DNA from: Umbilicaria muhlenbergii
Taxonomy: Eukaryota > Ascomycota > Lecanoromycetes > Umbilicariales > Umbilicariaceae
Reading direction: 5' to 3'
Assembly: GCA_000611775.1 (NCBI GenBank)
Contig: KK106987.1
Coordinates: 868,001 to 932,000 of the forward strand
Length of the DNA: 64,000 bases
Part shown: positions 16,968 to 60,303 of the stretch, piece by piece
How positions within the stretch are numbered: position 1 is the stretch's first letter
How the letters are laid out: every line of letters starts with the position of its first letter
Position numbers and translations under genes: made by a program
Notes under the pieces: model-generated
Told to the model about the DNA's origin: nothing
Databases searched by the model: none
What the model saw: only the letters and a program-made list of their open reading frames with translations

Positions 16968-19900
16968 ATGGAAATCGACCCTCGGCTTCGTGACGCCTCG
17001 CTGGGACAAGGAGGTCCCTCACAGTCATACAACGGCCTCCCTCCCCCGTCCTACGCGCTCAATCCTATCAGGCTGCCACCACCACCACCACCTCCTCCTC
17101 CCTCTCAGCACCATAACCATAACCATAATTCCGAGCTACCCCCATTAGCACAAGATGGCGGTCATCCATATTATTCACTCCGACCTGGTCTACCTTCAGC
17201 TCAGCCGCCATCATCTGAATCACACGCTCTTCATGATGAGCCAGTTGCGCCGCTGCCGCCACGAAATGCCGGTGATGGTCCCAATGACCCGAAAAGGCCG
17301 CGTGCCTGTGAGGCATGTAGAGGCCTGAAGGTCCGGTGCGAGCCAGATCCTGTGAAAGGGACCTGCAGAAGGTGTGCCAAAGCAGGTCGGCAGTGTATCG
17401 TGACTGTACCGAGTCGGAAAAGACAGAAGAAGACGGATAGTAGAGTAGCTGAGCTGGAGAAGAAAATTGATGCTCTGACGGCGAGCTTACACGCAACCAA
17501 GGGACAAACCGTGAGCGGAAGTGATGACGAGAGTGCGGAGGGAGAGGGCAACTCGCGCCTCAACATGTCACCAAGCTACACCAGGAACAATGGTTCAAAT
17601 CGAGAGACGCCACGGCAGAACAACGGGACCCTGGAGTGGCTTCCCAACCCCGAACAATACTCTGGACCGTCTGATAGAACCTACGAACACTCTTCAGCCT
17701 ACTCCACCTCTCCTGTTGCTGGCCGGAAAAGACGTATCTCAGAATTCCAAGATGAAACGGAATATTCATCTGCTTCTGCTCCTCGTGCAGTCACTGGGAA
17801 CAAAAGACATGCATACGAGCTGGATACCAAGCCATCCAACATACACCCACTTCTTATGCCCGAGAGCAGAAAAGTTACCACATCTTTGGCGCCGCCACAT
17901 AATCCGGAGATACCTGGTCATGAATATGCGGACGTAGTGGATCGCAAAATCCTCGACGCATCCACGGCTGCTGAAATCTTTGACCATTACACTCAGCGTA
18001 TGGCAAAGCATATGCCTGTAGTGGTCATTCCGCATGGTACCAAAGCTGGTGAAATACGTCGAACGAAACCTACACTTTTCCTAGCTATCCTAAGTGTTGC
18101 GTCTGGACAGGTACATACACACCATCAACGCACCCTTACGCGGGAGATCTTGCGTGTCTACGCGGATTCCATCATCTGCAAAAGCGAAAAGTCGTTGGAG
18201 CTTATTCAGGCACTTCAAGTCTCCGCGCTCTGGTATTGGCCTGAAACCGAAGGAGATGGGAAATGCTATCTCCTAGTGCATATGGCTGCAATAATGGCTA
18301 TCGAGTTAGGTATGGGCAAGCGACCAAGAGCCATCAAGGAGAGGTCCCACGCTGTTTTGAGAGAACCCCCGCGCCCGAAGCCCCCTGCTACCGACTCGAT
18401 GGAGAGCAAAAGAGCTTACCTGAGCACTTACTTTCTATGCGCCACGTACGTAGCCTTCCTCCGTTTCCCGTTTATTGTCACCTTGGACATTTTCAAATTG
18501 AGATTCATACATGGTGCGTTGATAGACTAATTTTCCCTATGTTATAGCGCAGCAATGAGCATGAAGCGACCAAACCTAGTTCACTGGAGCCCATATATGG
18601 ACGAATGGCTTGACGCATTGGAGACTGATCAAGATGCTCTAGAGTCGGACAAGACGCTATGCCAATGGGTAAGGCTACAACGACTTGCGGATGATCTGGG
18701 ATCGAAACTGTCACTCGACCATGTGTGCCACATTGACGTATCTAACCCCAAGGTTGAGTCCTTGCTCAAAGGATTCGAGCGGCAATTGAACGACTGGCAT
18801 GAGCAGACGCCGGATGCCAAGCCCTCACGTAAGTGAAAATGCTAAGATTTTCCGTGCTTTGCATCAAAAAGCGCCCACAAGTGCAAATCAACATGGCTGA
18901 CTGCGTGTATAGTACATTTGACGTTTGGTTTCCACACCATCAATTTTTACATGTATGAAGCGGCAATGCACTTTGATCAGAGCGTGGATGACCTCAAGAT
19001 GCCACGCACTCGCCAAGGGGACCACGACGGTGATGCGAATTGGTCTGAGCCTCTCACGTCACCTCATATCAAGGCTTTGACCACCTGCCTTGCCTCTATC
19101 CATGGTATCCTTATAATTTTCTCAAGCTTTTCGACCGAGGATGTTCGGACACTACCCGTATTCTATTTCATCCGCGTAGCATATGCAAGTCTATGGCTGA
19201 TAAAGATGTACCTCATCGCCAGTACGCCAGGTTCGGAGCTAAGTAGGGCTATTCCTGTAGAGGAGATGAAGGTGGCACAACACCTTGACACCGCGCTTAA
19301 TGCGTTACGAGCCGCAGCCGAAGGAGGAAAAGCTCGCATAGCGAACCACTGCCTGATGGTACTCGTGATGTTGAAGAATTACTATGAACGACAGCGGGAT
19401 GGAAAGTCCAGTAGCTCTGAAGACAATGCAAAGTCCTTCAAGCTCGAGGCTCAGCCCGTCGATGCGGGGAGGAACACACCAAGGCTGGGATATAGAAAGG
19501 TGTCGCTAAATGTCGACAACTACGGTGATAGAGCCTCGCTCGAGCAAATACAACATCATCAAACACAGCAGCAGCCGCAGCATCAGCAGCAACCACAGCA
19601 GCAACAGCAGCAGCAGCAGCAACAGCAACCACATCAACTACAGCCCCGACTCACAGCGCCCCCACCCCTAGCAAATACGCCCCTCCACCTCCTAAGCGAA
19701 GTTGCCATGACTGACCAAGCATCTAACGTGCACTCCGTCCATCCCACCCATTCCAGCGGCGGCGACATCTGGTACAACAGCTACAACCACAGCAACAACG
19801 CAATGGGCCCCGCCCCTCTCGCCTACCCACCCGAATACTACCCTATCGACGGCGGCTTGCAAGGCATGGATCCCGGGCTCGAACAAGCTCTGGGCATGAT

Positions 19901-19994
19901 GTTCGGAGAAGGGGATCTGAGCGCCATGTTTATGGATGATGGGTTTATGGGCGTGGCGCAGACGGTGCCGGGGGGTTATGAACATATGGGCTGA
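16968..19994 (+). CDS. War1-type Zn2Cys6 transcription factor
   Basis: Nuclear DNA-binding regulator, 946 residues. Exons: 16968-18445, 18548-18828, 18913-19994. The zinc cluster is C114-x2-C117-x6-C124-x8-C133-x2-C136-x6-C143, preceded by KRPRACEACRGLKVRCE and followed by the linker SRKRQKKTDSRVAELEKKID, which starts a coiled-coil dimerisation helix. This arrangement is what I know from the War1/WarA weak-acid-resistance group; the assignment is from recall of that motif and is moderate. A poly-Pro run (about 37-45) lies N-terminal, a middle homology region at about 320-650, and a poly-Gln stretch encoded by a CAG/CAA tract near 19563-19630, then an acidic, Met-rich tail (GEGDLSAMFMDDGFM) typical of an activation domain. 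Wobble composition changes from C/A to G/T in the last roughly 90 bases. Confidence 0.92.
19563..19630 (+). repeat. CAG/CAA tract encoding poly-Gln
   Basis: Interrupted CAG/CAA trinucleotide run within the third exon of the War1-type gene. Pure CAG stretches near 19605-19620 could vary in length between strains. Confidence 0.85.
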
Positions 19995-21200
19995 TCTGAT
20001 CTTAAAACTAGCGATTTGGTGACGGGGGTTTCAAAAAGGCGGGCTTTTTGCTTTGATAGAATTGCATGAATACCATGGCTTGGGTGCAGGTGCGAACATA
20101 GCTGAGCCATATAATAGCTTCAGCTCTCTCTTTTTCTCCCTCTCTGCCTCTATGTCCCTTTCTCTCCCTCTCCCTCCCTCTGTCTTTCACACACTCTCTC
20201 TCCCTTTCCCACCTGTACCCAGCTATCACCTTACCGCCACAATAAAGCTCCCTTCTTCGCATCACACCTGCCTTCTCCTCCCCCACGCCTTCCCTGTCCC
20301 TTCCTCTAGTCGCAAAAATCCCCTCCTCTCCTCCCTCCCCGCTCTCCTCCCCCTCCTCTCCTCCTCCACTACTCCTCTCCTCCTTCCTCCTTCCTCTCCT
20401 CATCCACATCCCGCTCCTCCATCTCCACCTTCAAATCCTCACCTGGTTATCTATCCCCCCAACCCCACCCCTAGCCTTCTAGCTCTCTAGCCACCCACAT
20501 CCCTCATCCTCGCGTCACATCGCGTCCGGTGCTAGATCTTCATCTGATGTCATCCTCTGTTCGCCTCGCTTAGGATTTGGAACGGACGCGCTGTAGGAGA
20601 TAGGGGTACTGCGGTGAGGGTGGTGACGGATGGGTGCTGGGGTTTGGGGAGGAAGTTTGGGGGTGGGGACTAAGTGGGGAGTTGGAGAAGATGGTATGAG
20701 GTTATATGAAGGGAGGAGGGAGGGAGGAAGAGAGGGAGGAAGAGAGGGAGGAAGAGAGGGAGGAAGAGAGGGAGGTGTTATGCATTTCCCCTGTGTTGGT
20801 GGATGGCAGTTCGATACCTCAGCTGATACTTCAGTAATCAAACAACACATCACAATCCGCTGACCTTCATGAGCAGAGCAGCACTTATCGGCAGAGAATG
20901 AATGGACAAAGTGATTCGCTTGCTTCCTTTCTTCCTTCATAGTCTCGTATCTCGTATCTCATATCTCGTATTCGCTATGGACAGACCGGATGGGCTGTAC
21001 ACCTATTATGACGAGAGTGAGAAGAAAACAGACAGACGCGTTGGAAGATAATCCACACTCATAACTCGCACGCAAGAACACCATTCGAAGATAATCCACA
21101 CCTCTCACGTAGAAATCCCTACTTGAAATCCCCACCTTCCATTCCATCCACCCATTACCGCCTCTTCCACCTTTCACTCTCCACTTCCCCTCACCTCACC
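19995..21200. other. convergent intergenic region with alternating C-rich and G-rich blocks
   Basis: No gene supported between the two convergent genes. The + strand is C/T-rich at about 20120-20515, G-rich at about 20580-20780 (including the 12-bp minisatellite) and C-rich again from about 21130 into the coding end of the next gene. Confidence 0.6.
20709..20775 (+). repeat. 12-bp purine minisatellite
   Basis: About four copies of AGGAAGAGAGGG are preceded by degenerate GGAGGGA units. All bases are purines on the + strand, so it is also a homopurine-homopyrimidine tract. Confidence 0.88.
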
Positions 21201-22049
21201 TCACAGCGCACCCTCCAGCTCATCCGGCCCCTGCACCAGCTGCCCGAACAACTCCTCAATCAGCTCCTCCGCCTCCTTGAACCTCCTCCCAAACCCCTCC
21301 ACGCCCTCCTTCAAATCAAGCAAGTTTTCCTCCATCTTGTAGATCTCGCGCAAGCGAAGATTAGCATCGGGGCTGGCCCACATGAGGTCGCATTGGGCGC
21401 GAAGCTGGCGGAAGTCCGCCGAATGCCGCTTGTAGGCTTCGAGGTTCAGTTTCTTGCTTTCTTGGTGGAGCCGGAGGAGCTCGAGCGTATGCTGGCGTTG
21501 CTTTGCCGCGTCGGAGAGTGCAGGGGGTTCCGCTTGGGGTTCCGCTTGGAGTGCCGCCTCAGCTTCCCTACGGGCGATGTATGCTTGAGTGCGAGCTCGA
21601 GAGCGAGCGGACCTAGCTGCGTTACTGCGTAGGCCCCGGCGGTGGTACTGACGGGGTTGGTTGCCGGCACGGCCGTGGGTACTGGGCGGCATTAGGTAGG
21701 TGCCTGCGCTGGAAGAAGGATTGGTGTAGCCCATATTCGGGGAGTAGTCGGTGCGAACGGCGCTGGGTCCAGACATATACGGATTCATGCCTGCTGCAGT
21801 GGAGGCGTACTCCACATGAGGGGCGACCGCATTGCTGGCTGCTGCCCTGGGGGTGAAATCCATGCCCGGAGTATAGGTTAGGGCGCTTCGGGGAGTCGGT
21901 CTAGGTGGAGTAATGGTGATGAGGGGGTTATTGAGTTCGACGAGGGTATTGTTGCGCCCGACGAGGCGATAGGCCGGCTTGGCAAAGGGGTTTGTGATTT
22001 CGGAGCTGTTGCTCCCAGCATCATCAGGGATGTTCGTATTGCTAGCCAT
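21201..22049 (-). CDS. hypothetical coiled-coil protein
   Basis: Single-exon gene for 282 residues; not recognised. The N-terminal 130 residues are low in charge and rich in Pro, Ser, Thr and Asn (probably disordered). They are followed by an Arg-rich patch (SRARTQAYIARRE, about 148-160) and a C-terminal helical region of about 100 residues (EYKxHxxDF-like, then EENLLDLKEGVEGFGRRFKE) predicted to form a coiled coil. The ATG follows an ordinary leader and the reading frame is uninterrupted with strong codon bias, supporting a real gene. Coding-strand wobble changes from C/A-rich to G/T-rich at about 21360, within the last roughly 160 bases. It converges with the War1-type gene. Confidence 0.7.
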   Translation of the reverse strand: MASNTNIPDDAGSNSSEITNPFAKPAYRLVGRNNTLVELNNPLITITPPRPTPRSALTYTPGMDFTPRAAASNAVAPHVEYASTAAGMNPYMSGPSAVRTDYSPNMGYTNPSSSAGTYLMPPSTHGRAGNQPRQYHRRGLRSNAARSARSRARTQAYIARREAEAALQAEPQAEPPALSDAAKQRQHTLELLRLHQESKKLNLEAYKRHSADFRQLRAQCDLMWASPDANLRLREIYKMEENLLDLKEGVEGFGRRFKEAEELIEELFGQLVQGPDELEGAL

Positions 22050-22443
22050 GGCTAGCGAAGCTGGATGGATGTTGTTAGTGTTTTAACGGGGGCGTCATAC
22101 TGAGGATTATACCTTCTGGTGCACTGTGGTAGATTGACGGTCGAATATATTGTGAGGAAGTGAGCTCAACCGTTCCGTAATACGTGTTGAGTATGTAAAA
22201 ATACGCCCCACGCGTCGAAACTCCGTGGTGCCTTCTCAGCCGTACGTGATATTCGCCACAATACGATGCACTTGCAAAACCAACCACCTCCGGCAGAACC
22301 ATTATCTCAATATGTCCCTCAGCATGCTTATACCACCGTATATATATTCACACAAGAATCGAGTCAGAGTATAATGAATAGAAAAGCGAACGCCACCTTA
22401 CCGTGTTCAAAATATAAAAGATGACCAATAAAACACACACCTT
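22050..22443. other. short intergenic region between two minus-strand genes
   Basis: Holds the promoter of the coiled-coil gene and the 3' region of the carrier gene. I see no gene or notable repeat. Confidence 0.5.
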
Positions 22444-35381: not shown

Positions 35382-35931
35382 GACAGGGACAAGAGCAAAG
35401 CCTTGAGGAGATTTGTAGATGGAGCAAGAAATTCATGACATTCGTAAGCTTGTAGCACCAATAGGCGGAAGGATCGTGGCCAAACCGCTGTTTGAGAAAC
35501 AGGTGCAGCGTAACTACAGCGCAACTACAGCGTCAAGAGTAAGGGATGAGGGTTCCTTACGCTGTTACGGTATGCGACGGCATAGTTTACGAGTTACAGG
35601 GATTACCGAAGTTAAAAGTCGGATGGAATAACGGCACGGTAAAGTTGGTAAAGGTGGTAAAGTTTGTCCGCAAGGCTGGAGGCAGCCACACCGGCCAATT
35701 AATGCCTCGAAGGACGGGACACCTCCGTCTTGGCTGTTGACAATTGACAGCGCCATGGAGCGCCGGCGTGAAGTCTCGCACCCATGTTAGTGTTATTCAT
35801 CTAAGCATCCTCAGACCTCTATTCGTCGGTCTCTCATGAATGCTGATGTGCTATTGTCTGTACCGCAATGTCTCTCTGTTTGGCCCTTCGGTTATCCTCC
35901 GTTTACATGCTCTCCTGCGCAAAACCCCGCC
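35382..35931. promoter_or_regulatory. divergent promoter region
   Basis: Gap between the divergent mannosyltransferase and the orphan gene. It has a direct repeat AACTACAGCG (about 35512-35531). An in-frame ATG at 35836 could extend the downstream protein by 32 residues, but that segment (hydrophobic, Cys/Pro-rich) looks like leader, not protein. Confidence 0.45.
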
Positions 35932-38900
35932 ATGCCTGAGAATAGCTCGGCGGTGGAGCAGTCACGCAATGACCGCAAAGCTCTCGGAAGATACAACTGG
36001 CGGGCCAAGCTATTCGCAAGTGATAGGACCAAAGGAGAAGACAAGCAAACGGAGGTGGGTCTGGCTACAGACGTGGTAGATTTTCTCAATGGTGCCAGTA
36101 GCAATACATCTGCAAATATCCGAATAGGCCCTTCAACACCCGTGTTTGATGCCGCTATCGCACAAGATTGGCCACCAGCCGCAGGAGTCTCTCGCTCAGG
36201 CACAGAAGCTGCAGGGCACACTGAAGGACCGTTCCAACAGTCCACCCGAACTAAATATGTCAGTCTTCCAAAGCGGGGAAAAACCAAGGGACTTCGTGTG
36301 AGATTCACAGATTTGCCTCCCCTGATTATTGGCTGGGGAGGAGATGAGGCAGACTTGCCACCAAAGGACATATTGAGGGCACGGGAGGGGCTTGAGCAGG
36401 GACACGGCGAACACCAATCTGATGCAGAAAACAGTAAAGTCAAGGCTGAAAACTGTCCGTACGGACAGCCACCGAGACAGTTTAGTCATGTCGCTCTGAA
36501 TATCTTCGAGGATAGTCACCCAGTTTCTCGGCAGAAAATATCGACTACGATTGTCACGTCCGAGAAACGCCAGGAAACTAAGCTCCCCCAGGAGGAGACT
36601 GGCTCTACACCTCCTGAAGGAGATTATTCCCCCGTGGCCTCGAACGAAGATCACCAAGACGCTAGAGTATTGCCACCGGATGCTCCTACCCCAAAAGCGG
36701 TTGCCAGTGAAATCAAATCCAGAATAAGGCTTGCAAAAGGACAAGAAGTCGACCTGGACGTACAGGTGTCATCACCTTCTTTGGATGAAATAGCTATTAA
36801 GCATACTAAGGACTACCCCACATCCAAACCTCCGCTAGCAGCGCGGGCCTACACTCTGTCCGATATCGACTCCATAGCAAACTATTCTTCATGCACTACT
36901 CCCTCGCTACTGCCTCCATCGCAAACACAAGCCGATTCATTTCACAGTCATGTTCCTGCTTCCCTTGCACCTCGTAAGTCCTCCCAGCCGACTGGTAGTT
37001 TGGCAACGTTTCAGGATTCTCTGCAGCACCGTGACCCTCCTGTCGAAGGGGCGCCAAAGGCTACACCCATTGCATTACGGGCTGTTGCGCACGCAGTCGG
37101 AAACGATGCTCTGGACGACTTTGCGCGCCGTGTACAGCACTACGATAGCTTCTTTCATAGCTCTGCGGCAGCTGATCGACCTGACATAGACATTGCGTTC
37201 GTCGAGTGGATTCGCGCAGCTATGTGGTGGTTCTTGAAGGGCAGAGGTGAACTTGAAAGCGCCATTCGCAGCAGGCCTCGAAGCGCAGATAGCAACAAGG
37301 ACGACCGAAACTCATCTTCCCTCCCAGATATCTCTCAAGCTTATGTTGATCTGGCTAAAGCATGGTGGATTCTGAGAGAAGTTACACCTGAGCACCCCAA
37401 GCTAAAACCTTATGGCAATGCCGGCATGGAATCCTTGGCCGCGACCATCAGGAGCTTCAAGGAGGAAAAGCTGGCACAAGCGGTAGAGACGCATATAGGG
37501 CTCGAAGCAAGCATGCGGGTTTTGACTATGTCGATGAAGAGGAATAATCTCTTGCCCCCTGATCCTAGAATTGACTATCAACCAACGGGTCTCGATATGC
37601 GGATATGGATCGCATCCCCATCGCTACCATCCTACCTGCTATCTCTACTTTCGAATCGTCCCACGCAAGCTCCTATTCGCAACGGAACTCCACACGATAC
37701 TGACTACTCATCTCATGTACCCATAGGCGACACAACTGATCTTTTCTGTTACGGCAGCATGTTTGTGGATGTAACCGTTACTGTACAAAGTAACAGCGGA
37801 GGAGGAATAAGGCTTCCTTGCGTACTTTCAATTGTCCGTGAACCTACTCACTGGCAGATGGACGCCATCCTAGCTAGCCAAGATGAGCATTTCTGTCTTG
37901 TCATTCAATCAGATAGGAGTGTAGGACCATCCTGGTGGGATGTGGAGTGGAAGGCCCACAAGCGACAGCTCCGAATCAGGTTGACTGAGCGCATCGAAGT
38001 GCAAGTGCAATTCAAGGAGCACGATTACAACCTCTTGTCCAGGTTACATGCGCATAATCAGAAAGTCATGCGCAGCTTGGAGCCTGGGTCCGAAGAGGCC
38101 CTGCTGTTCGAGACGAGGCTGAGGAACTTTACCTGCCTTGATCGGAGACGTTCCAAAAAATTACCCAGTGACGCAACCAAAGGTTGTCGAGTACGGTTGT
38201 TTGAGAGAAACGTCATCCACGTCGAAGGCACTGGACCACGTAAGGTACATCAAGGCTACCGACTGACAGTCATTACTCCGCCAAAAATAAAGGCTTTGAA
38301 TAGCGTCGAGTCTTATGTGTGCTGCAAGAAGCCGGTACTCTCCAGCTATCTACGTGGAGAAGAAGGCGCACCCGCTCTGCTCTTGAACCTGAACGATGAG
38401 GCCGAGTACTCGGCGGATACTTCTTTCAGCGTGATCATGACCTTTGACGATGCGGCCCAACGCGAAGAGATGCATTCATTACTCAGCGGTACTGCTGCAA
38501 GGGATTCGGAACGCATTATAGCCAGTCTAGTATTGAGTAGCCTTAGTATCAGAAGAAGGCCCCCAACTGATCACACCACGGGTGACTCCGAAATACTTCC
38601 GACAGGCCTCCAGTGGGAGAAACTACGAATCATCAATGACAGCTCAGGGCACACTCTACAGGCTCACCACAGAACGGTGCGTTCGGAAAGCCTGCGGTTG
38701 TGCCTGACTTCGCCCATGGGAACCATGACAGATCGTATCAACTTGAGTTAGTATACCATAAGACTTCCAGATGTATGTTGCTCACATTGAACAGGCTATG
38801 GAAAGGTACAGCTGCATCTTAGCGTCACGGATCTCAATGACGTTACGCTCCTACGAATCCCACAGGAGGACTTGACCTTATCGATAGCAGAAAATCTTGC

Positions 38901-39636: not shown

Positions 39637-40074
39637 ATTTATCAGTTTTTGAGGAGCCCCTACGGGAATCAACGGCGAACTTGGGGGACACAGCGATGTT
39701 GCGTTTGGACCTGGTGGCATTTTCATTCTCAAGCAACTGCAAAGCGTGCGCATGATATCATACCCTCTGCTGCGTCGGAAGGAGGTTTGGACGGCGTCAA
39801 CAGGAGTTCTGGGAGGCTCTACAAGAAGTATCCATAAAGTCATGGGCGATGGGCCAGAGTCTTCCTGGCATTCAGTGTTTCCTAGCAATGTTAGGGTTTG
39901 ATGTTCGGGGTTTAATCGCCCGAGACTAGTCCTCCTTATCTTAGCTTGCTCGGCTTCTTAAAAGTTATCATTTTGTGGGGCTTGATTTATGCATAGAGTA
40001 CATCAAGGAAACTGCCCTCAAGCCATTGCCAGATCCCATCAGGAAGTGCAGTTTTGCATCTATAGAAAGCAACC
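39637..40074. other. short intergenic region
   Basis: Holds the 3' region of the orphan gene and the promoter of the PLP-enzyme gene. Nothing else recognised. Confidence 0.5.
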
Positions 40075-41440
40075 ATGACGCTCCCCCTCGCGAATGGCGA
40101 CGACGTCGCTGTAAATCCATCCATCCGCACCTTTTCCCCAGCAACGCAAGCAATCCACGCCGACGACCATTTAAACCGCGGTCCAGACGTCGCACCAGCC
40201 CTTCATGTCTCAACGACCTTCCGCTACACATCAAACCCCGACGACCTAGTCCCAGCCAAAGATCTAAAAGTAGGCATTTCCCCCCCGCCCTCCCCCCCCC
40301 AAAATCCCCCAATCCATCGCCCACCCCTTGTCCAACCCAAAGCCCATCCACCCATCCATCACACACCCCTCCCCAACCCTCGCACCCTATCCGCTAACGC
40401 CCATCCAGCAACCCCCCCCCTCCTCCGACACCCACATCTACTCCCGCGAAACCGCCCCCAACACCACCCGCCTCGAAACGCTCCTAACCCCCCTCCTGCA
40501 CGCCCCCTGCCTAACCTACTCCTCCGGCCTCGCCGCCCTCCACGCCGCCTACGTATTCCTCCGCCCGCGCCACGTCTCCATCGGCGGCGGCTACCACGGC
40601 AGCCACTCGGTCCTCAGCCTGCACGCCAAACTGACCGGCCTGCGGACCCTGCCGCTCGACTGCGCGGCCGAGGCCTTGATGCCGGGGGACGTGGTGCATC
40701 TGGAGACGCCGGTGAACCCGACGGGCGAGGCGTTGGAGATCCGGACGTTTGCGGAAAAGGCGCACGCCCGGGGGGCCTGGTTGTTGGTCGATGCGACGTT
40801 TGGGCCGCCGGGGCTGCAGGAGCCGTTTCGGTGGGGGGCGGATGTGGTGATGCATAGTGGGACGAAGTATTTGGGGGGGCATAGCGATATGCTGTGTGGA
40901 GTGCTGGCGACGAGGCGGGAGGAGTGGATAAGGGGCTTGGCGGAGGAGAGGACGAGTTTGGGGAGTGTGATGGGCAGTTTTGAGGGGTGGTTGGGGGTGA
41001 GGAGTTTGAGGACTTTGGAGTTGAGGGTGCGGAGGCAGAGCGAGAATGCGGAGAGGTTGGTGGAGTGGTTGGAAGAGGCGAGGGAAGAGGAGGGAGGGGC
41101 GGTGGGGAAGGTGGTGGAAGGGGTGAGGCATGCGAGTTTGCAGAGGGAGGATATGGGATGGTTGAGGAGGCAGATGCCGAATGGGTTTGGGCCGGTATTT
41201 GCGATTTGGATGAGGGATGAGGGGTTGGCTAGAAGGTTGCCGAGTAAATTGGCGCTGTTTCATCATGCTACGAGTTTGGGTGGGGTGGAGAGTTTGATTG
41301 AGTGGAGGACTATGAGCGATACGACGATTGATACGAGGTTGTTGAGGGTTAGTGTTGGGGTGGAGAGGTGGGAAGACCTTCGGGATGATCTGCTCAATGG
41401 ATTTCGGGAATTGTGTTCTGAGCAGGTCTCCAAGCAATAA
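40075..41440 (+). CDS. Cys/Met-metabolism PLP-dependent enzyme (cystathionine lyase type)
   Basis: Trans-sulphuration-type enzyme, most likely cleaving or forming cystathionine-like thioethers in the cytosol; 408 residues, usual length. Exons: 40075-40269 and 40409-41440; the intron has a CTAAC branch-like site. Landmarks: TRAIH-like N-terminus (FSPATQAIHADD), APALHVSTTFRY, YSRETAPNTTRLE, substrate/PLP loop YSSGLAALHAA, LETPVNPTGE, LVDATFGPPGLQEP and the Schiff-base Lys in MHSGTKYLGGHSDMLCG. C-terminal VESLIEWR and RVSVGVERWEDL are the usual family end. Beta-lyase versus gamma-lyase or synthase cannot be decided. The coding strand is nearly all C (or A) at wobble up to about 40650 and then nearly all G or T, an abrupt switch inside one exon. 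Confidence 0.94.
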
Positions 41441-41568
41441 TGGAGCGTACCCATGAGGTTTTGGAACAATGCCCAAATCAGCTGAACTTCTGAGTAAATT
41501 TCTACACTTGCCGTACACAGACAACCTTCTCAGTGCCTGTCCACACTTCCTCTCTTTTCCTCTCCTCT

Positions 41569-42055
41569 TCACTGTTTAGTCCCTTCTTCGGCTGCATCCT
41601 TCGCGGATTCATTGCCAAAGCTAACATCGTCGAGTCCCTCTTGTACTTCGTTATCACTCCACGCACCCTCCTCGTCAGCCTATGGTCGAGTTAGAAACTT
41701 TCCATTGCAATCACTAGCGCTGCTTATAACACACCTTCATCCTTTCTTCCAACAGCTCCTGCAAAACCCTATTCTGTCTGTTCCTCTCCTGCAGTCTCCC
41801 CTCCAACTCCTCCAGTCTTCCCTGCATCTCCTCGTTGTTGTCATTTAGCCAGCCGTTTTCCACTCGCAATCGGACGTTGGCTGCCTCGAGCTCTTGGATG
41901 TAGGCCAAAGCGGCACGCGCTGCCTTGGTGTTTCTGAGACCTTTATTCCTGGCGAAGTGTGCGTTGATGATATGGCGGGGAAGATTTGCCACGAGGGTCT
42001 CCCGAGCAAATTTCTCCTCATTGCGTGATCTAATGGTGCATTTATCGGTAGGCAT
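41569..42055 (-). CDS. small coiled-coil protein
   Basis: Two exons, 42055-41735 and 41679-41569, give 143 residues; the second exon (ADEEGAWSDNEVQEGLDDVSF...) joins through a GTGTGT donor and CATAG acceptor. A long helix at about 45-107 has leucine-rich heptads (IQELEAANVRLRVENGWLND, EEMQGRLEELEGRLQERNRQ, VLQELLEER), so a parallel coiled coil is likely. The N-terminus is basic and the tail acidic. No homologue recognised. It converges on the PLP-enzyme gene, with only 128 bases between stop codons. The lengthy coiled coil and spliced acidic tail support reality, but the start codon is less sure. Confidence 0.65.
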
Positions 42056-45215: not shown

Positions 45216-45961
45216 ATGGCGCAGTATCTTGCCAGTATATTCGGGACAGAACAAGATAAGGTGTGTAACGAGTCCACGGCATCTGGGATTCGAAACTAAC
45301 ACATAAACCCTAGGTCAACTGCTCCTTCTACTACAAAATCGGCGCCTGCAGACACGGCGACCGCTGTTCAAGGAAACATGTCAAGCCCTCATACTCGCAA
45401 ACCATCCTACTCCCCAACCTCTATCAGAACCCCGCCTACGACCCCAAGACCAAGATGAACGCCAGTCAGCTCCAGAACCACTTCGACGCCTTCTATGAGG
45501 ACTTCTGGTGCGAGATGTGCAAATACGGTGAGATAGAGGAAGTCGTAGTCTGTGACAACAACAACGACCGTAAGTTCCGTCCTCCAGGCTCCACTCTCCT
45601 ATCGATCCTCACTAACACCCCGTCCAACTCAGATCTAATCGGCAACGTCTACGCGCGCTTCAAATACGAAGACTCGGCGCAAACCGCCTGCGACGCGCTC
45701 AACAGCCGCTGGTACGCTGCCCGTCCCATCTACTGCGAACTCTCCCCGGTGACCGATTTCCGAGAAGCCTGCTGTAGGCTCAACAGTGGAGAAGGGTGTG
45801 TGCGGGGCGGCTTCTGCAATTTCATACATCGCAAGGAACCGAGTCCGGAGTTGGAGAGGGAGTTGGAGTTGGGGACGAAGAAGTGGTTGCGAGCGAGGGG
45901 ACATGATGAAAAGAGTATGAGTCGGAGTCCCAGTCCGGAGCCGACGAGGAAGAGATACTGA
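45216..45961 (+). CDS. U2AF1: splicing factor U2AF small subunit (U2AF35/U2AF23)
   Basis: Nuclear subunit that recognises the 3' splice-site AG with the large U2AF subunit; 209 residues, like S. pombe U2AF23. Exons: 45216-45260, 45314-45569, 45633-45961. Starts MAQYLASIFGTEQDKVNCSFY, the conserved family N-terminus. First CCCH finger: C18-x8-C27-x5-C33-x3-H37. The central UHM/RRM contains FYEDFWCEMCKYGEIEEVVVCDNNNDH and GNVYARFKYEDSAQTACDAL. Second CCCH finger: ACCRLNSGEGCVRGGFCNFIH, normally ATCRQ..GxCxRGGFCNFMH, so one Thr-to-Cys change adds an extra Cys. A short RS-like tail (SMSRSPSPEPTRKRY) closes the protein. Very secure. Confidence 0.97.
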
Positions 45962-46761: not shown

Positions 46762-48111
46762 GGTGAAGGTGGTGGTGATATAAGGAGAGGTAGGTCTGTT
46801 CGGCAAGGCTCGGTTTCGGGCAGCAGTTGTTGCCAGTCTCGTGCCAGATAGCAATCAATGTGCGACGCTATGGCGCTGGATAAGGGCCAAACTCGCTCTC
46901 CCAATGGTCGATAGCCGTAAGGAATGGATGGACAGCTTAGCCAGAGCTCTACCGCATGAATGAATGTCGTTGCTTTGTAGAGAGAAGGAACGAATCAAGT
47001 GGGTATTGTACTTTGATATCAACAACTCTGCAGCATAAAGGAGTGGACTGCTCAGATGAAGAGACAAGAAAACCGAAGACCGTCAAGGAGCTCTAGAACC
47101 GTCCAACTCAGAAATATAGTACAAACTCGAATACTGAGTGGACAGGAAAACCCAGACCCTCGTGCGAAAAAGAGCTCCAGATGCGGAGCCGTACCTTACA
47201 TCAAGCCCACATGCAAATAAATGCACCACACCCTCCTCGACACCAAGCAGTGGACCTCGTTAAATTGAACGACCCCAGACATCAGCCAATCACCAAACAG
47301 CGTCGCCACCCTCGTCGGCCGCGTTGAGCTTGACCACCCGCTTGGCCAAATCAAAACGGCCGGCCCACATGCAGGCATGCGGCCGGCATGCATTCCTCGA
47401 CGATCTGAGTGGTGAGGGTGTGCAGTTTGCTGGCAAGCAGGGGTTGCGGAGATTGGTGTGGGGAGCTTTCCTGCATCTTTTGCGGGTTCTCTATTCCGTA
47501 GCGTGATTGGAGGTGCATGGAGAGATATCTTGGAACTGGGATCCGGAGCTGGATTAGGCAGGCTCGGCAGGCTTCAGTGCTGAGAGACCACCCCGTTCGA
47601 CCCTGTATTACATGAACTTGAAACATCTGCCAAAGACAACGAGTTTGTGCGACAGTGGCGCGGGTGGCAGCCTAGAACGCCTGGGCTCAAATATTGTGAG
47701 TAGCAACTTATCCCAGGCATCTTGATTCTCGCCTATACCGCCCTTGAGTGTACATCATCTTTCGACAGTTGAATATCTACACGGAGGAAGTCTCGCTTGA
47801 GTTCACAATCGTGAGCAAATGAATTTAGTGTTTGAGGCCTAAGCAGTGGCATTTATTGAAGATTTGCGGAGTGTATGAGGTATCTAACCGCAGGCCCCTC
47901 TGGACTCGAGTACAGTATCCTTTCCCATTCAGTTTAACGCACCCTATGAATCGTACAAAGCAACTCCAAATAGGTGATCCAGCTTCATTATGCACCGTGC
48001 TATACCGTACTCTCACTATGGCCCCATGATCAAACCTCTTTCCGCATTTTCTGCAGACTCTCCTTGCTCTTCGTCGTCGACTACCTCTTCTTTGTCTAGC
48101 TCTTGCTCGAT
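46762..48111. other. intergenic region
   Basis: 1.35 kb without a supported gene. It has the promoter of the small membrane protein and the 3' region of the kinase gene, plus a short GC-rich near-palindrome with GCATGC motifs (about 47368-47395). Short open frames show no signature. Confidence 0.5.
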
Positions 48112-50094
48112 CTAGACTCTATGTACGGCATTTTTGGCAGCGTCTACTTCGTCTCCTTCATCGTTTGGAATCCCATGGCCGACCACATCCAGCCCCTGTT
48201 CTACCAATTTATCTTCCTTGACTATGCCCTCACTGACCTGTCCCGCTTCGATTGCTTCGGCTCCTCTGGTCTTGAGGCCCGCTTCGTTGTGTGCAAGGCG
48301 AGTCTTCGTAAGATCTGCTTTGAGTTCCTGCCAGACTTCTTGCTTCAACTCCTCTTTGAGCGCCTTCTTCACTTCTTCCTTGAGGTCCTTCTTGAGCTGG
48401 ATCATAAGGTCCTCCTTGAGGTCTGCCATGAGCTTCTCCCTGAATTCCCTCTCGAGCCTCATCAGACTCTCTTGCTTGACTTCTTCAGAAATTGTTTGCT
48501 CGTCGTTCTGTTCCTTATTCGTACCTACTTCCTCGGATTCTTCCATGAGCTGGTCGCGCTCGACTCGGTCCTGAGGAGGGCCTCTTTGAAGTCCCTCCTC
48601 CGCTTCGTCTCTGATGGTCGCTTCGATAAGGGCTTCGACGTTCTTGAGCTCGCCTTCCATGATTACTGGTTCTTCGACTGGTTTCTGGACTTGAGCGTCT
48701 ATCTGGGTACCCGCTTGTTCCTCCTCATCCTCATCTTCATCCTCGTTTTCATCCACATATCCTGTATCAGCAGCGAGGAACTCTACAGCCGCCGAAGGAC
48801 CTGGATCTCCATTAGCAGGGGCTCTCAACAACAATGACAGACACAAAAACCTCGAATGCGACGGTAGTACAGGAACCAGTAGCCGTTGATCCAATCCATG
48901 TTCCTCCAGGCCTGCTGTCCTGTATATCCTTCAAGCCCGGCGACTAACATTGCTCCATCTGAATGCATGGCTTTTGAAATGGGCGTCGCTACGTCAGTAG
49001 TCGTCTCCGCAGCTGCCACGAGCTCGACGAACGCGTCAAATCTCTCTCTACCCTTCGCTGCGAATTCTATTACGAGCGGGGCCGTCTCCTTAATGCCGGG
49101 GATGGCAATGTTCACGCCACAAAACTTCGGAGGCTGGGCGACCACGTGAATAGGCGCCGCGATAATACCGTCGCAATCGATCAAGCCCACGATATCCATA
49201 TTCTCATCGATGAGAACGTTGTGGAAGCCCAGGTCGGTGTTCGTAAGACCGAAGGGACCGTTGTCGACAGCAGAGTTGCTCAACATAGGCATAAGACTGT
49301 TGAATAGGAATGGCAGATGCAAGCCGGTGTCATGCGTAGCATCTCTGTTATTCGAGTGTTGATCTGCATACAGGTGGAAGCGGTGCCCACTGATGGCCTC
49401 GTAAAAATCTTTGGCCGTCTTAAAAGGTCCACTGTCGGTCTCGAGCACAGTGCCGATCTCGAAGTCGTCGGTTCCGTTCGTGAAAATGCTTCCTATGCGG
49501 TCAAACTTGCACGCCGCAAGCTCTACCATCATAGCCGCCATCTGCTTCAGTAGGCGACTAGCAGCAGCTTCTTCCAACTCTAACGCGTCCGCTGCTGTTC
49601 CGTGGATGTATGTGAGGAGCATGTATGGCGCGCCGACCTCTACGTTTCGACGAGCGTTGGTTGCGTAGACTTCGGGAACCGGTATGGTAGTATGTTTTCT
49701 GAGTTCTGTCAGCCTTGAAATGTCTTAGATCTTAACAAGTCTGACGCTGTCCCTACTTGAGATACTTGTAAGTAGCTACCTGGCTTTCCATGACCTTCTC
49801 TGCACTGGCGGAAATGCCCACATCGGTCTCTGCATCATTCGCAAGCATCCAGATTCTAGCCACCCATCTTACACCATCCTCAAATTCTACCAACCTGACC
49901 AGATTTTCCGTCCCAATGCTGAACTTCTCGCTAACCTTGCAAGCAATGCCGTCCCGAATCGAAGAGCATATTCCGCACAGGCTATCCCATCTAGTATTCT
50001 CGAGGCAGCGTGTTACCAATGTTTCGATCTTGCCGCCTTCCAGGAGCTGATCTGCGCCCTCCCAGCCTTCGCTGCCAATGACTGGAATGGACAT
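48112..50094 (-). CDS. APH-type phosphotransferase with acidic coiled-coil C-terminus
   Basis: Kinase-fold protein of 624 residues. Exons: 50094-49757, 49698-48851, 48800-48112. The kinase part (about 1-395) has a VRLVEFEDGVRWVARIWM strand pair with the ATP-lobe Arg instead of Lys, the hinge-like APYMLLTYIHG, the catalytic loop NTDLGFHNVLIDENMDIVGL (Asp and Asn kept; His-Gly replaced by Asn-Thr) and the metal Asp in LIDCDG, as in the fungal aminoglycoside-phosphotransferase-like family. The last exon adds about 230 residues: an acidic run (DENEDEDEDEEEQ) and a Glu/Lys-rich coiled coil (EKLMADLKEDLMIQLKKDLK). The intron joining the parts has a weak GTTTTT donor; unspliced, the kinase ends as RGFCVCHCC. 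Substrate unknown; the fusion is likely but not certain. Confidence 0.8.
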
Positions 50095-54680: not shown

Positions 54681-55146
54681 TGAAATTCAGCGCCGTTGAT
54701 AAAAGGAGCCTGCTGTTCAGACCCATGAAGTGTGTTGACACATCGATCGAGGATCAGGTCCAATGGCTCTTTGTGAACTCAACCTGTGCATCTGCGGGTA
54801 GAGCATCAACAGCAAGGGGTAAGACGAGTTTTCTTGTGTCTCACTTATTCCCCAAACTTATAGTGAACCGGGGAAGGTAGGTTAGGCGTATGTGCAAAAT
54901 CTATTTTACTAGATACTTAGCTACCTTAGGGTCGAAGCATTGTGGGCGCATTAGTCTCTACTCTAGCGGACTCGTCGACGTTGGCCGAATGTAAGACAAT
55001 CTTCTCATGCTTGCTGTGTATCAGAAACGTGGACAGTGCTATGATGATATAAGATCTGGATGCCCTCTGAGCAACTGACCTGTCTAGATTTGGGTATAAG
55101 ACTAAAGTAGATTCCAAAAAACGTTGCAATAAATCCGTTAACAACA
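54681..55146. other. convergent intergenic region
   Basis: Shared 3' region between the oxysterol-binding protein gene (+) and the deacetylase gene (-). Nothing recognised. Confidence 0.5.
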
Positions 55147-56613
55147 TCAATAAACCAATTCTCCTCGAACGCCCGCCCCTCTTTCCCTATCCCGCCTGAA
55201 CTTCTCATCCCCCTCCTCCCTTTCCTCCCTAATCTCCCTCTCCACATCCTCTCTAATCCCCTCCAAATCCGGCGGAATCACCTGCATCTCCACGCTGGGC
55301 GCACCCTCCAAATACCGCAACTGCTCTCCGATCCCCCTGACCAACTTCTCCAAATACGGCCTATCGTTCTTGTTCTCGAACTTGCCATGCTCGCTCAGTG
55401 GCGGGAAAAGCGTCTTGTCTGGCGCGAAGTGGTTTAGGAACGGTGTGTGCGCGGGTAGGGATTCGTTGAGCGTGGCATCAATGCAGATGCTTGTTTCGTA
55501 AGCCCAGAGCCGGGCAACGTTGCGGGGTGTATATCCACCGCCGCCGAGAACGAGGAGTGGGAGGTTGAAGGTTTTGACAAAGGAGACGCAGGCGCCATGG
55601 GCACGGATGTTGAGATTGAAGCAACCGAGTCGGTCGCAACCGAGGGAATCGGCGCCGCATTGGAGCACGATGGCCGTGGGTTTGTAGTGCTCGACGCAGG
55701 GGCCGACGATGTCGCGGAAGAGACGGATATAGTCTTCGTCTTCGATGCCGTCATTTAGGGGCACGTTGAGCGCATGATGCGCGCCCGGGTTGAGCGGGTT
55801 GAGCGGGCCAGTTGACGACAGCGGGCCGGTGCCGGGGAAGAAGCCGTCTTTGTCATATTTGTGGAAGGAGAGGGTCATGACGCGGTCGGTGGACCAGAAG
55901 GCTTGTTCGACGCCGTCGCCATGGTGGACGTCGATGTCAATGTAGAGGACGCGCGGGTGGTAGCGGAGCAGTTGCAGGATGGCGAGCACGATGTCGTTGA
56001 TGTAGCAGAAGCCGGATGCTTCGGATTTTTTGGCGTGGTGCAGGCCGCCGGACCAGTTGATCGCGATGCTCGATTGGTTGTTGATTAGTTTGCGCGCGGC
56101 GTCGATAGAGGCGCCGGCGTAGAGGGAACAGTAGCTGTAGAGACCGTCGAAGATGGGGCAGTCGTCGCCGATGTTGTAGTGGGGGACTTGTTCGGATAGG
56201 GATGGGGCGGCCATGGTTTCGGGGGTTACTCTGCGAGGGTATTAGTTGGATTGCTTGGGTTTGGGATAGAGGAGCTGGTACCGTTGCAAGAACTCGAGGT
56301 AGTCATCGCCGTGAAATTCTTGCATCTCTTCGTGCGTGGCCGCTCGTGAAAGGTACAGGTCCATCGCCTCGTGCATACCATATGCCATGACCAGCTGCTT
56401 TGTGAGTGTGAGCCGCCATGGCTTCATAGGGTGTGACTGTCCGAAATGTTGCCTTTCGACTTCAGGATTTGCGTGCCAGGAGACCGTATACCCTTGAGGC
56501 TTGGCGATACCATTGTTGAGGATTTCCCGCTGGACCTTCTCGTCGATACTGAAAGTCGACGTTTGCCCAGGCTGAGGATGCTCGTAGTCCTGCACAATAG
56601 CAGTCCTGGCCAT
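55147..56613 (-). CDS. HOS2: class I histone deacetylase Hos2
   Basis: Zinc-dependent lysine deacetylase, catalytic subunit of the Set3 complex in yeast; nuclear. Exons 56613-56282 and 56230-55147; 471 residues. [27 protein letters not shown] opens the domain. The catalytic His pair is 175/176 in [11 protein letters not shown], zinc ligands are Asp211 and His213 in DIDVHHGDG plus the Asp of [12 protein letters not shown], and [14 protein letters not shown] closes the pocket. [19 protein letters not shown] distinguishes Hos2 from Rpd3 (which has RLN...AVNYAGG). The tail is Glu/Arg-rich. The coding strand is C/A-rich at wobble up to about 55390 and G/T-rich afterwards. It diverges from the ING gene, sharing 514 bp. 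Confidence 0.97.
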
Positions 56614-57127: not shown

Positions 57128-58515
57128 ATGGCCATAGTTGAAGATGCCGCTTCGGTGTTGGAACAATTCGTCCAAGACGGTATGTGTATCACGTGACCAG
57201 CAGAGGCCCTATCTGATATATAATCCAGTTGCCAATCTTCCGGCCGAGATAGCCCATCTTCTTGAGGAAATCCAAGCCAAAGACCGAGTTCTTCAAGAAT
57301 GCCGCAGTGTCATCAACACACGGGATAACAGTATCCAGAAATGGATGAAGGTCAACGGCACGGGCCAAATGAACCCTAAAGAGGAACCTTATACCAGGAC
57401 AATCTTGGCAAACTTCGATAAGGCGCAGACAATACAAGAAGAAAAGGTCGGACTAAGTGCCAAGGTTGGCGTACTCGTGAGTGCTCGCTCCCCTTCACTC
57501 TATGTTACACATTGTTAACCGCATGACCTAGCTTGACCGACAAATCAAGCGTCTCGACCTAAAGATCCGTGACCTCCAGAACGAAGGTACCATCGCCATT
57601 GATCCGACTCTACCCTCCCTTCTCAACCCCACAGTCGGCAACCGTCTCCCTCCCATCTCCACCTCCACTACAGGTGCCAGCACCCCACTAAATCCCTTAT
57701 CCGGCAACGCCGGCCCCTCCACCACCATCGCCAACAACAGCCTCCTCAACCGCCTCGTGGGCCCACCCTCGCAACTAAACCAGCGCCCAGCATCCCCCGC
57801 CATAACCGGCCCCCTCCAACCGCACCACTCCCACCTCCTCAGCAACCTCACCCCCACCATCCCAGCCTCGACCATCCACCTCCAAAACCGCGCCCGCGAA
57901 TCCTCCGCCGGTGCCTCCGACGCCAAACGTCGCCGCCTCAATGCCCACCTCCCCATCCCCCCTACATCGTCCAACCTGCGGCAATCATCCCTCGGCCCGG
58001 GTACGCCCAAAGCCGGAACGCCCTTAACCGCCCGTGGCGGCAGCGCCGGCCCGCGCCCAGGCGGTCCGAAGAAACCAGGGAAGAAAGTAGCGCCGCACCA
58101 GCGGGTGCACTCCTTGAACCCCAGCGCCGCGAACAAGAAGGTACGCCGGCCGCGACCCGGCAAGAAACACGGCGGTCTAGGCACGGGCTCGATGAAACCC
58201 TCGCCCTCAGATACCGGCGACGACGAGTCCGTCCTCAGCGAAGTCGAGGGATCCGAGGACGAGAATATGTCGCAGGGGGGAGCGGGGAGGGAGGATGTGG
58301 AGATGGAAGATGTGGGGGCGGGGGATGGGGGGGAGGAAGATGATGGGGGGGATGATCGGAAGTATTGTACTTGTCGAAGCGTGAGTTATGGGAATATGGT
58401 TGCGTGTGATAATCCGGAGTGTCCTTATGAGTGGTTTCATTGGAGTTGTGTGGGGATGACGAAGGAGCCGGTGGGGACTTGGTTTTGTGAGGAGTGTAGG
58501 GCTAAGATGCAGTAG
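57128..58515 (+). CDS. YNG2: ING-family PHD-finger protein, Yng2-like
   Basis: Histone H3K4me reader; 427 residues. Exons: 57128-57179, 57229-57476, 57532-58515. The N-terminal ING helix starts [20 protein letters not shown] and continues through [21 protein letters not shown] and the spliced [21 protein letters not shown] Pro/Ser/Asn-rich linker with a basic stretch ([23 protein letters not shown]) follows, then an acidic run, then the PHD finger YCTC...[18 protein letters not shown]...GTWFCEEC (C4HC3, about 377-424). [20 protein letters not shown] is closest in my recall to Yng2 of NuA4; Pho23 of Rpd3L is the alternative. Wobble bases flip from C/A to G/T at about 58255, so the PHD-coding part contains almost no C at third positions. 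Confidence 0.93.
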
Positions 58516-58844
58516 ATATGGGTTATGGGGATCCGATAGTGGCGGTGGTTTTGATGTGTGATGTTTCTTAGCGGTCACTGAACATGCGGATGAGTGGAAT
58601 GAGTTCAAAAATAAGGCCACAGCTTCTCATGTTGTGAACTTAACGTTGTAGTTTCTCATCGCATCAATGATGTTTCTGTAGAGTTGCGATATCTGGAGCA
58701 ACCTTGCCAGTAGAAGGTAACATTATTTGAACAGAGAAGAGAGCTAGCGCCAGTTTTGCCAATCGAAATTCATCCCAAGAAATCATCACAGCGAAGGGTA
58801 TCTTCCACGCCAGACGAAACAACTGTGTAACACAAAAAGAAAAC
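58516..58844. other. convergent intergenic region
   Basis: Shared 3' region between the ING gene (+) and the DUF7514 gene (-). No feature recognised. Confidence 0.5.
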
Positions 58845-60303
58845 TCAAGCCCAGGAGATTCCACCAGTAGGATACCTTCGTCCCCCAACCCCTCTCAACG
58901 GCCCTCCCACCCTCCTAGTCCCCGAATGACCACCGGCAGAATCTCTTCTACCTTCCGCAGCTCTCGCGCTGTGGTGCACCCCAGGCGTAGCCGGCGCACT
59001 CCCCGGAAGGTTCCATATATGATCCAAATCGCGCCATCTTACATTCAAACTTCTAGCGTTCCCGCGAGGTGGTCCGGTCGGCTGTCGATCCTGGTCGAAA
59101 TACGATTGCTGAGGGCGCTGCATGGCTCCCGCCGGCTGCGGCGTCACAAAATCGCGCGGATCGTACAGACTGTGTGCTGAATGCCGGCGCTCTTGTCCAG
59201 AGGATGGCGGGAAGAGTTGGGGCCGATCTTGGTACCGGACGACAGGGCTTCGACTCGCTTCGCTGGTCGCGATGCTTGAGTCGTCGTCGTCGCTGTCAGA
59301 GTCGGAGGTAGTAGAAAGTGTACTGGGGGTCGTGGGTCTGGATCTAGGAGGAATATGAGGCGCGGTAGCTTGTGTAGGTGTATGCGCATCGTTCGTCCAG
59401 TACGGGTTTCGCTGGTGGTTGTGATCGGGTAGGCTCCGCCGGCGGTGATGGTGGTGACTGTCCGGGGCAAGCCGTTGCTGATAGTGTTGGGGATGGGTAC
59501 GAGGCGGCGCTGGCATATGTACTAACCCTATGTTTGGACGCACGAATGGTGGGCGAAAGCAAGGCTCGGTAAGGTAATCTGCAGCGTCGACGACCGACCG
59601 GTCCTCGATGGACGATTGTGTGGCGGTGTCATTGTCATGTTCTCCCCTAGCCGTAGTGTCTGGCACTGTTCTCTGCGTAGATGCCGCTGCCTCCACCCTT
59701 AGCTTTTCCGACACACCCTCATGCCACTTTATCATCTCTGGGTCCGGCTTGTACGGGAAAGCCGTCTTCGGTAAGACCTTGGGGAACTCGCTTCCATCCG
59801 CCAGATGTACGATCTCGAAGCTCTTGACCGCTTTTTGCAGTAACGGGATATGCTCTTCTGGCCCGAGCAGTAACTGAACCGTCTGCCATCTCACGAAGCC
59901 CTGCGGGGTCAAGGCCGGAATGGATGGTGGCACGTAGGGATCATGATCAGGCTGTAGGGTCTGAAAACAGCCCAGGGACTGGTAAATGAACGAGAGAGAA
60001 GCAGGAGGCGTTTTTAGAAATAAGGCGTCGAAGTCACCGTCAACAAGGCGGTAGAAACTAGCAAGCTTGGTGGGAGTGAGACAGTGGACATCCCATGGTG
60101 CGATATGCTTTTTCTAATGCTTTATGGTTAGTAACAAGCTTTCCAGCCTTCTATTACGATTGACTCGAGGAATGGAGGCAATATAGGCATACTATGTAAT
60201 TCGCTATTCCGAGGAGGAATTGTTCGAACAAAGGCGTCGGGGTCTTGTCCGGTTGGATTAGGTATCCCCAGTACTCCTCCGCAGTTATCGTAGCATCCCC
60301 CAT
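58845..60303 (-). CDS. DUF7514-like fungal protein
   Basis: 459 residues in two exons, 60303-60193 and 60113-58845. The N-terminal globular region (about 1-170) reads EYWGYLIQPDKTPTPLFEQFLLGIANYI, then WDVHCLTPTKLASFYRLVDGDFDALF, LSFIYQSLGCFQTLQPDHDPYVPPSIPALT and GFVRWQTVQLLLGPEEHIPLLQKAV. This is the Pezizomycotina domain I know as DUF7514; the name is from memory. The rest is disordered and rich in Pro, Ser, His and Arg (YQQRLAPDSHHHHRRRS; a DSDSDDDDSS run). Function unknown. Start at 60303 is the first ATG of the exon and the splice (ATA|GTATGC ... ATTAG|AAA) is in frame. Confidence 0.78.

Follow-up and report, generated by a model that had tools for sequence, protein, structure and literature searches.

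Mirror-symmetric C-to-G composition flips in a 64-kb stretch of the Umbilicaria muhlenbergii genome, with recurrent break repair as a tentative cause

Introduction

What could make the silent sites of a single fungal exon change abruptly from mostly C to mostly G? This question is raised by a 64,000-nucleotide stretch of DNA from Umbilicaria muhlenbergii (GenBank assembly GCA_000611775.1, contig KK106987.1, positions 868,001 to 932,000 of the forward strand; hereafter the window), in which a gene for a pyridoxal phosphate (PLP) enzyme carries such a switch, or flip, near position 40650. A first-pass annotation had described the wobble bases there as changing from C/A to G/T, had listed further sites of the same polarity, and had proposed origin-linked asymmetry, transcription-linked asymmetry or repair from a fixed break as possible causes. 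All counts given here were made within this one window, which reads as fungal nuclear DNA from the domains of its genes (Zn2Cys6, Fungal_trans, ING, histone deacetylase, FYVE, amidase and sugar transporter). The pattern of flips across the window is real; their cause is what we infer, and the explanation that we tentatively favour is recurrent break repair with strand-asymmetric conversion.

A flip within the PLP-enzyme gene

Viral contigs scanned with exon 2 of the gene yielded no confirmed relative. The gene and the two arms of its flip, the latter delimited by a hidden Markov model (HMM) and by wobble counts, are as follows.

40075-41440, plus strand: Cys/Met-metabolism PLP enzyme gene (PF01053, E 1.4e-60; nearest PDB chain 9uuw)
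40117-40660, no strand: C-rich left arm, comprising exon 1, the intron and the start of exon 2 (C 0.51, G 0.14)
40661-41375, no strand: G-rich right arm (G 0.48, C 0.12)

The gene model is our own, with an ATG at 40075, exons at 40075-40269 and 40409-41440, an intron at 40270-40408 and the stop at 41440, and it translates without an internal stop. Four-fold degenerate wobble positions left of 40650 hold 65 C, 17 A, 12 G and 3 T (n=97), and those at 40650-41380 hold 81 G, 9 C, 7 T and 4 A (n=101). The two-fold codons follow, with pyrimidine-ending codons passing from C29/T6 on the left to C9/T34 on the right and purine-ending codons from A8/G0 to A7/G70. The best wobble change point lies at 40678, where the G/T fraction rises from 0.17 (154 codons) to 0.87 (254 codons) with a log-likelihood gain of 107. 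The jump in the coding sequence has a z of 8.65, which was matched by none of 1000 synonymous shuffles made for this gene (highest value 5.23), and the 139-base intron is skewed in the same way as the left arm, with 78 C, 30 A, 20 T and 11 G. The abrupt wobble flip described in the first-pass annotation is thus confirmed, and the shuffles and the intron bear out its statement that residue choice is not the cause.

Codon positions 1 and 2 of the gene shift as well. At residues that differ from those of two PDB homologues (51 sites on the left and 118 on the right versus 9uuw; 47 and 144 versus 7yeo), the PLP enzyme leans to C-type codons in the left part and to G-type codons in the right part, with one-sided permutation p values (9uuw, 7yeo) of 0.0002 and <0.0001 for GC skew and of 0.02 and 0.002 for keto skew. 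Since these differing residues follow the arms, the force behind the flip seems to reach replacement sites too.

In a scan of the whole window with 500-bp arms, the skew rises at 40636 with a z of 12.6, compared with at most 5.8 when 30-bp blocks were shuffled 100 times. Close to the centre (up to about 100 bp from 40650) the skew is reduced; it peaks roughly 160-360 bp out and is gone by about 650-800 bp. When arms of 50 bp are used, rises (up-jumps) and falls (down-jumps) look alike and neither direction stands out. Because the skew is weak near the centre and the short arms show no direction, the flip is resolved to about 100 bp and not to a single base, so the abruptness claimed earlier stands at the former scale only.

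Polarity and frequency of flips in the window

A three-state HMM with symmetric transitions, which gives both polarities equal probability, found 20 skewed blocks in the 64 kb, with seven C-to-G contacts and two G-to-C contacts. Entries were into C arms in eight cases and into G arms in three, and exits were from G arms in eight cases and from C arms in three. All five islands of touching blocks open with a C arm and close with a G arm, and in a sixth block pair (57590-58563) the arms are separated by 212 neutral bases. Twenty windows shuffled in 30-bp blocks gave at most six blocks and at most one contact of each kind. The earlier view that a flip marks a symmetric centre holds, and one polarity dominates within the window.

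Each of 36 open reading frames (ORFs), a set with some overlaps and probably some spurious members, was compared with 300 synonymous shuffles (smallest possible p 0.003, without multiple-test correction), and at p<0.01 seven jumped upward, one downward (48115-48930, minus strand) and 28 in neither direction. Two of the seven, ORFs 21021-21629 (plus) and 21204-22082 (minus), overlap and represent one flip.

A scan of GC-skew amplitude with 300-bp arms found six up-jumps and four down-jumps above the largest amplitude (0.69) of 200 block shuffles. The four extreme down-jumps (20130, 20920, 41460 and 58610) flank up-jumps, and the strongest of them, -1.06 at 20130, lies between two up-jumps. We have taken the up-jump as the centre of a flip and the down-jumps as its outer edges. 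Down-jumps were considered as the focus and rejected, given that their z values fall below those of up-jumps at arms of 200-500 bp and that G+C content is not raised there. Flip sites were pooled because they are skewed, and centres were picked for their jump; with this in mind, within 250 bp of seven centres C falls from 0.41-0.53 to 0.13-0.21 and G rises from 0.09-0.21 to 0.40-0.44, and the GC-skew jump at ten centres has an amplitude of 0.47-1.32. Arms are roughly 0.2-0.9 kb long, with one small block of 0.12 kb, and the nearest neighbouring centres are 0.5-0.8 kb apart.

The other flips

The other sites listed in the first-pass annotation were all recovered, at positions that depend on arm length (6555-6595, 20506-20569, 21323-21429, 45706-45766, 55353-55414 and 58169-58267). 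These and related features are given below; p values are from synonymous shuffles, and the first five and last two are HMM calls.

5756-6194, no strand: extra C and G blocks in the island of the 6590 flip
6195-6868, no strand: flip at 6590, apparently non-coding on three-frame reading
19534-20106, no strand: block pair at 19850, left arm a poly-Q tract on translation (p 0.64)
20107-20777, no strand: flip at 20569, apparently non-coding, with low-complexity CT and GGA tracts (tandem repeats)
21053-22011, no strand: flip at 21336, overlapping the end of minus-strand ORF 21204-22082 (p 0.007)
45314-45958, plus strand: weaker flip at 45748 in a CCCH zinc-finger ORF (PF00642; p 0.003), not an HMM call
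55142-56278, no strand: flip at 55397 within a minus-strand histone deacetylase gene (PF00850, E 1.6e-73; p 0.003)
57590-58563, no strand: flip at about 58246 in an ING/PHD gene (ING PF12998, PHD weak; p 0.003)

Several flips are coding, as had been supposed; for those at 6590 and 20569 we could see no plausible reading frame, and they are placed between seemingly convergent genes. A Pfam search with ORF 21204-22082 gave no match. The ING gene has a C arm at 57590-58033, then the 212 neutral bases, then a G arm at 58246-58563 that extends beyond the stop codon. Further up-jumps lie at 19850, 25204, 47378 and 59051. That at 47378 is outside all 36 tested ORFs, and the others do not exceed their synonymous shuffles (p 0.64 at 19850, 0.57 at 25204 and 0.10 at 59051). 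The block pair at 19850 is probably a matter of protein composition.

The outer end of the G arm in the 20569 flip also holds a tandem array of AGGGAGGAAGAG (20710-20775; 5.6 copies, 96% matches), opposite CT-rich tracts at 20124-20438. A DUF7514 gene (58848-60113, minus strand) shows a weaker C-to-G change near 59051.

Palindromes, which read the same on both strands, were considered as a cause of the flips and rejected on the basis of an inverted-repeat search. No inverted repeat of at least 16 nt occurs in 40000-41500. Pairs of 16-26 nt number one at 5700-7000, two at 55100-56300 and four at 57500-58700, and there are 13 pairs at 19500-22100, where the five shown are all low-complexity.

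G+C content at the flip centres

Around the PLP flip, G+C in 50-bp bins is 0.68-0.76 over 40400-40849, is highest near the switch and declines outward to about 0.5 outside the arms. In the window as a whole, up-jump positions in the top 5% by strength have a local G+C of 0.61-0.62, compared with 0.50 for the corresponding down-jump positions and 0.52 in the rest, and it is 0.57-0.71 at the six extreme up-jumps and 0.46-0.49 at the four extreme down-jumps. Four-fold sites carry G or C in 634 of 821 cases (77%) in six flip exon pieces, compared with 1328 of 2613 (51%) in nine control ORFs. A local G+C peak at synonymous and intron sites, as seen in the PLP flip, is also characteristic of hotspots of GC-biased conversion. 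However, ordinary GC-biased conversion has no strand bias, whereas the flips segregate C and G to opposite sides.

Precedents

The first-pass annotation knew of no description of such switches in fungal genes. Reversals of GC skew on a kilobase scale, in regions where G+C is raised, have been described at the centromeres and many telomeres of Candida albicans, with a jump of 74% over about 3 kb at the centromeres (passages of PMC2924309 and PMC3459929); no such reversal inside ordinary genes is described in those passages. By analogy, the centromere jump is the nearest precedent found, since, as in the window, GC skew passes from negative to positive with large amplitude and short range in a region of raised G+C. 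It differs in being intergenic and present once per chromosome, compared with six extreme up-jumps in 64 kb of which several lie in coding exons, and in having a local G+C dip at the switch point, where the PLP flip has its highest G+C. The jump is attributed to constitutive origins in passages of PMC2924309 and not to replication in passages of PMC3459929. None of the literature matches listed, to judge from titles and the starts of abstracts, concerned fine-scale flips of skew within the genes of filamentous fungi; in the part of PMC6573468 that we used, 'GC skew' denotes G+C content, and that paper was set aside.

Recurrent break repair as the favoured explanation

Because the effect is mirror-symmetric and G+C is raised at the centre, a fixed break with strand-specific processing is suggested. 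Of the three causes proposed in the first-pass annotation, repair from a fixed break fits best; the support, which is indirect, is that up-jump centres have raised G+C and down-jumps do not. Our favoured explanation, to which we would give somewhat less than an even chance, is that each flip marks repeated initiation of recombination near one position, the flip centre, with biased conversion that is mismatch-specific and strand-asymmetric. After a break at the centre and 5'-to-3' resection, the 3' strand that invades would be the top one to the left and the bottom one to the right. Where invader and donor mismatch, repair would act at the invader's expense; it would be more efficient at G/T (with G or T in the invader) than at A/C (with A or C in the invader), and more efficient at G/G than at C/C, such that the invader would lose G and T more often than C and A. 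Over time, the left side would keep C (and A) and the right side G (and T), and GC-biased conversion would raise G+C near the break.

Repair against the invading strand is usual in yeast. G/T is the best-repaired mismatch in that organism, and C/C is repaired 3-5 times less efficiently (passages of PMC3218862). A toy model into which these two preferences are entered yields C and A to the left of the break and G and T to its right. The dominant polarity, the raised G+C of up-jumps, the higher four-fold G+C of flip exons, the skewed intron and the residue differences along the arms all speak for this explanation. A broader claim would be that meiotic breaks at fixed sites have written the preferences of mismatch repair, resolved by strand, into the genome of this fungus, such that a single assembled sequence would reveal break positions (the flip points) and heteroduplex lengths (the arm lengths), and this we regard as doubtful.

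A number of points weigh against recurrent break repair. The choice of invader strand and the direction of repair are assumptions of this explanation. In the toy model, C or G becomes the commonest base only if C/T is also assumed to be repaired worse than A/G, and the model predicts the minority G or C below the observed level (left-arm G of 0.01-0.03, compared with 50 of 364 observed). Fungal break hotspots lie mostly in promoters, whereas the centres of the coding flips lie inside genes. Words of 5 to 8 nucleotides within 80 bp of nine centres gave no shared motif beyond chance (414-1320 words per length). In pooled flip exons, the G+C profile is weakly peaked, with 0.89 and 0.82 beside the centre and 0.55-0.82 (left) and 0.64-0.81 (right) farther out. 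ORF 14879-15445 has a significant up-jump though its G+C at third codon positions (GC3) is 0.50, and ORF 48100-48834 has a GC3 of 0.70 without an up-jump. Finally, TA skew shows no change at 55397 and the opposite change at 20569. The element common to the flips is thus the C-to-G switch, for which the earlier claim of a shared polarity stands, and the A/T part is inconsistent.

Alternative explanations

Recurrent breaks might instead act through strand-specific mutation in single-stranded DNA, without any conversion bias. In humans, according to passages of PMC7615360, the 2-kb flanks of meiotic breaks are strongly strand-asymmetric and no asymmetry is seen within 100 bp of the centre, a mirror-symmetric geometry that resembles the weak skew near 40650. 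However, what those passages report is a mutation spectrum (C>N and A>N on the forward strand, single-stranded at the left) and not a composition flip. By our reading, the left side would then lose C and A, yet C, and in the PLP gene A too, is enriched there if the centre is the break. The human polarity would fit breaks at down-jumps, where G+C is not raised, and we consider this mechanism unlikely. Asymmetry linked to transcription, for example in a gene transcribed in sense over its 5' half and in antisense over its 3' half, or to R-loops, is a live alternative, given that by symmetry each coding flip is C-rich in its 5' part and G-rich in its 3' part and that the PLP arms fade near both gene ends. 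The same idea is difficult to reconcile with the ING gene, where the C arm begins at 57590, within the gene, and the G arm continues beyond the stop, with the two seemingly non-coding flips, or with the majority of tested ORFs that have no flip, and we judge it quite unlikely.

Protein composition, low-complexity sequence or codon selection accounts for the poly-Q pair at 19850, possibly for 20569 and for part of 6590, and in the ING protein Pro/Ser/Thr-rich and acidic stretches contribute to the flip (mean z of 4.4 in shuffles and 6.1 observed). As a general cause it is improbable, because the PLP flip, where it is refuted, is present at synonymous sites and in an intron, and because the histone deacetylase, CCCH and ING flips each go beyond 300 synonymous shuffles. 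Very local sites of replication initiation have a precedent in the up-jumps of combined G-C and T-A skew that, in the published passages, mark bacterial origins and have been used to predict human ones. Yeast origins share the symmetric reversal with the flips. However, passages of PMC3459929 place A and C enrichment on the leading strand of Saccharomyces cerevisiae, Kluyveromyces lactis and C. albicans, which gives a change from G/T to C/A at an origin and is opposite to the flips, although the replication polarity of this species may differ. The S. cerevisiae jump is also only 9% and fades over about 20 kb (same passages), compared with amplitudes of 0.47-1.32 and arms of less than 1 kb in the window, where centres are as close as 0.5-0.8 kb. 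The origin-linked asymmetry proposed earlier is therefore disfavoured and, in our estimation, very improbable.

Implications and further observations

If flips do mark break sites, then fungal genome sequences would suffice, without crosses, to map recombination hotspots and the strand bias in mismatch repair. It would also follow that the bias of conversion can differ between strands and be strong enough to influence which amino acids are used. Whatever their cause, flips disturb codon usage and phylogenetic signal, and they mislead gene prediction through the long stop-free antisense frames that they leave, which arise because a strand rich in half the bases lacks antisense stops. Two such frames, both probably artefacts, are present at 40511-41575 (minus strand, 354 aa) over the PLP flip and at 57528-58385 (minus strand, 285 aa) over the ING flip.

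Elsewhere in the window, an Rfam search at the gathering score gave no match to RNA genes. At 35791-38748 (plus strand), the domains DUF7611, DUF7612 and DUF7613 occur in tandem in one protein, with no significant flip there. At 48100-48930, ORFs overlap on both strands of a pyrimidine-rich stretch.
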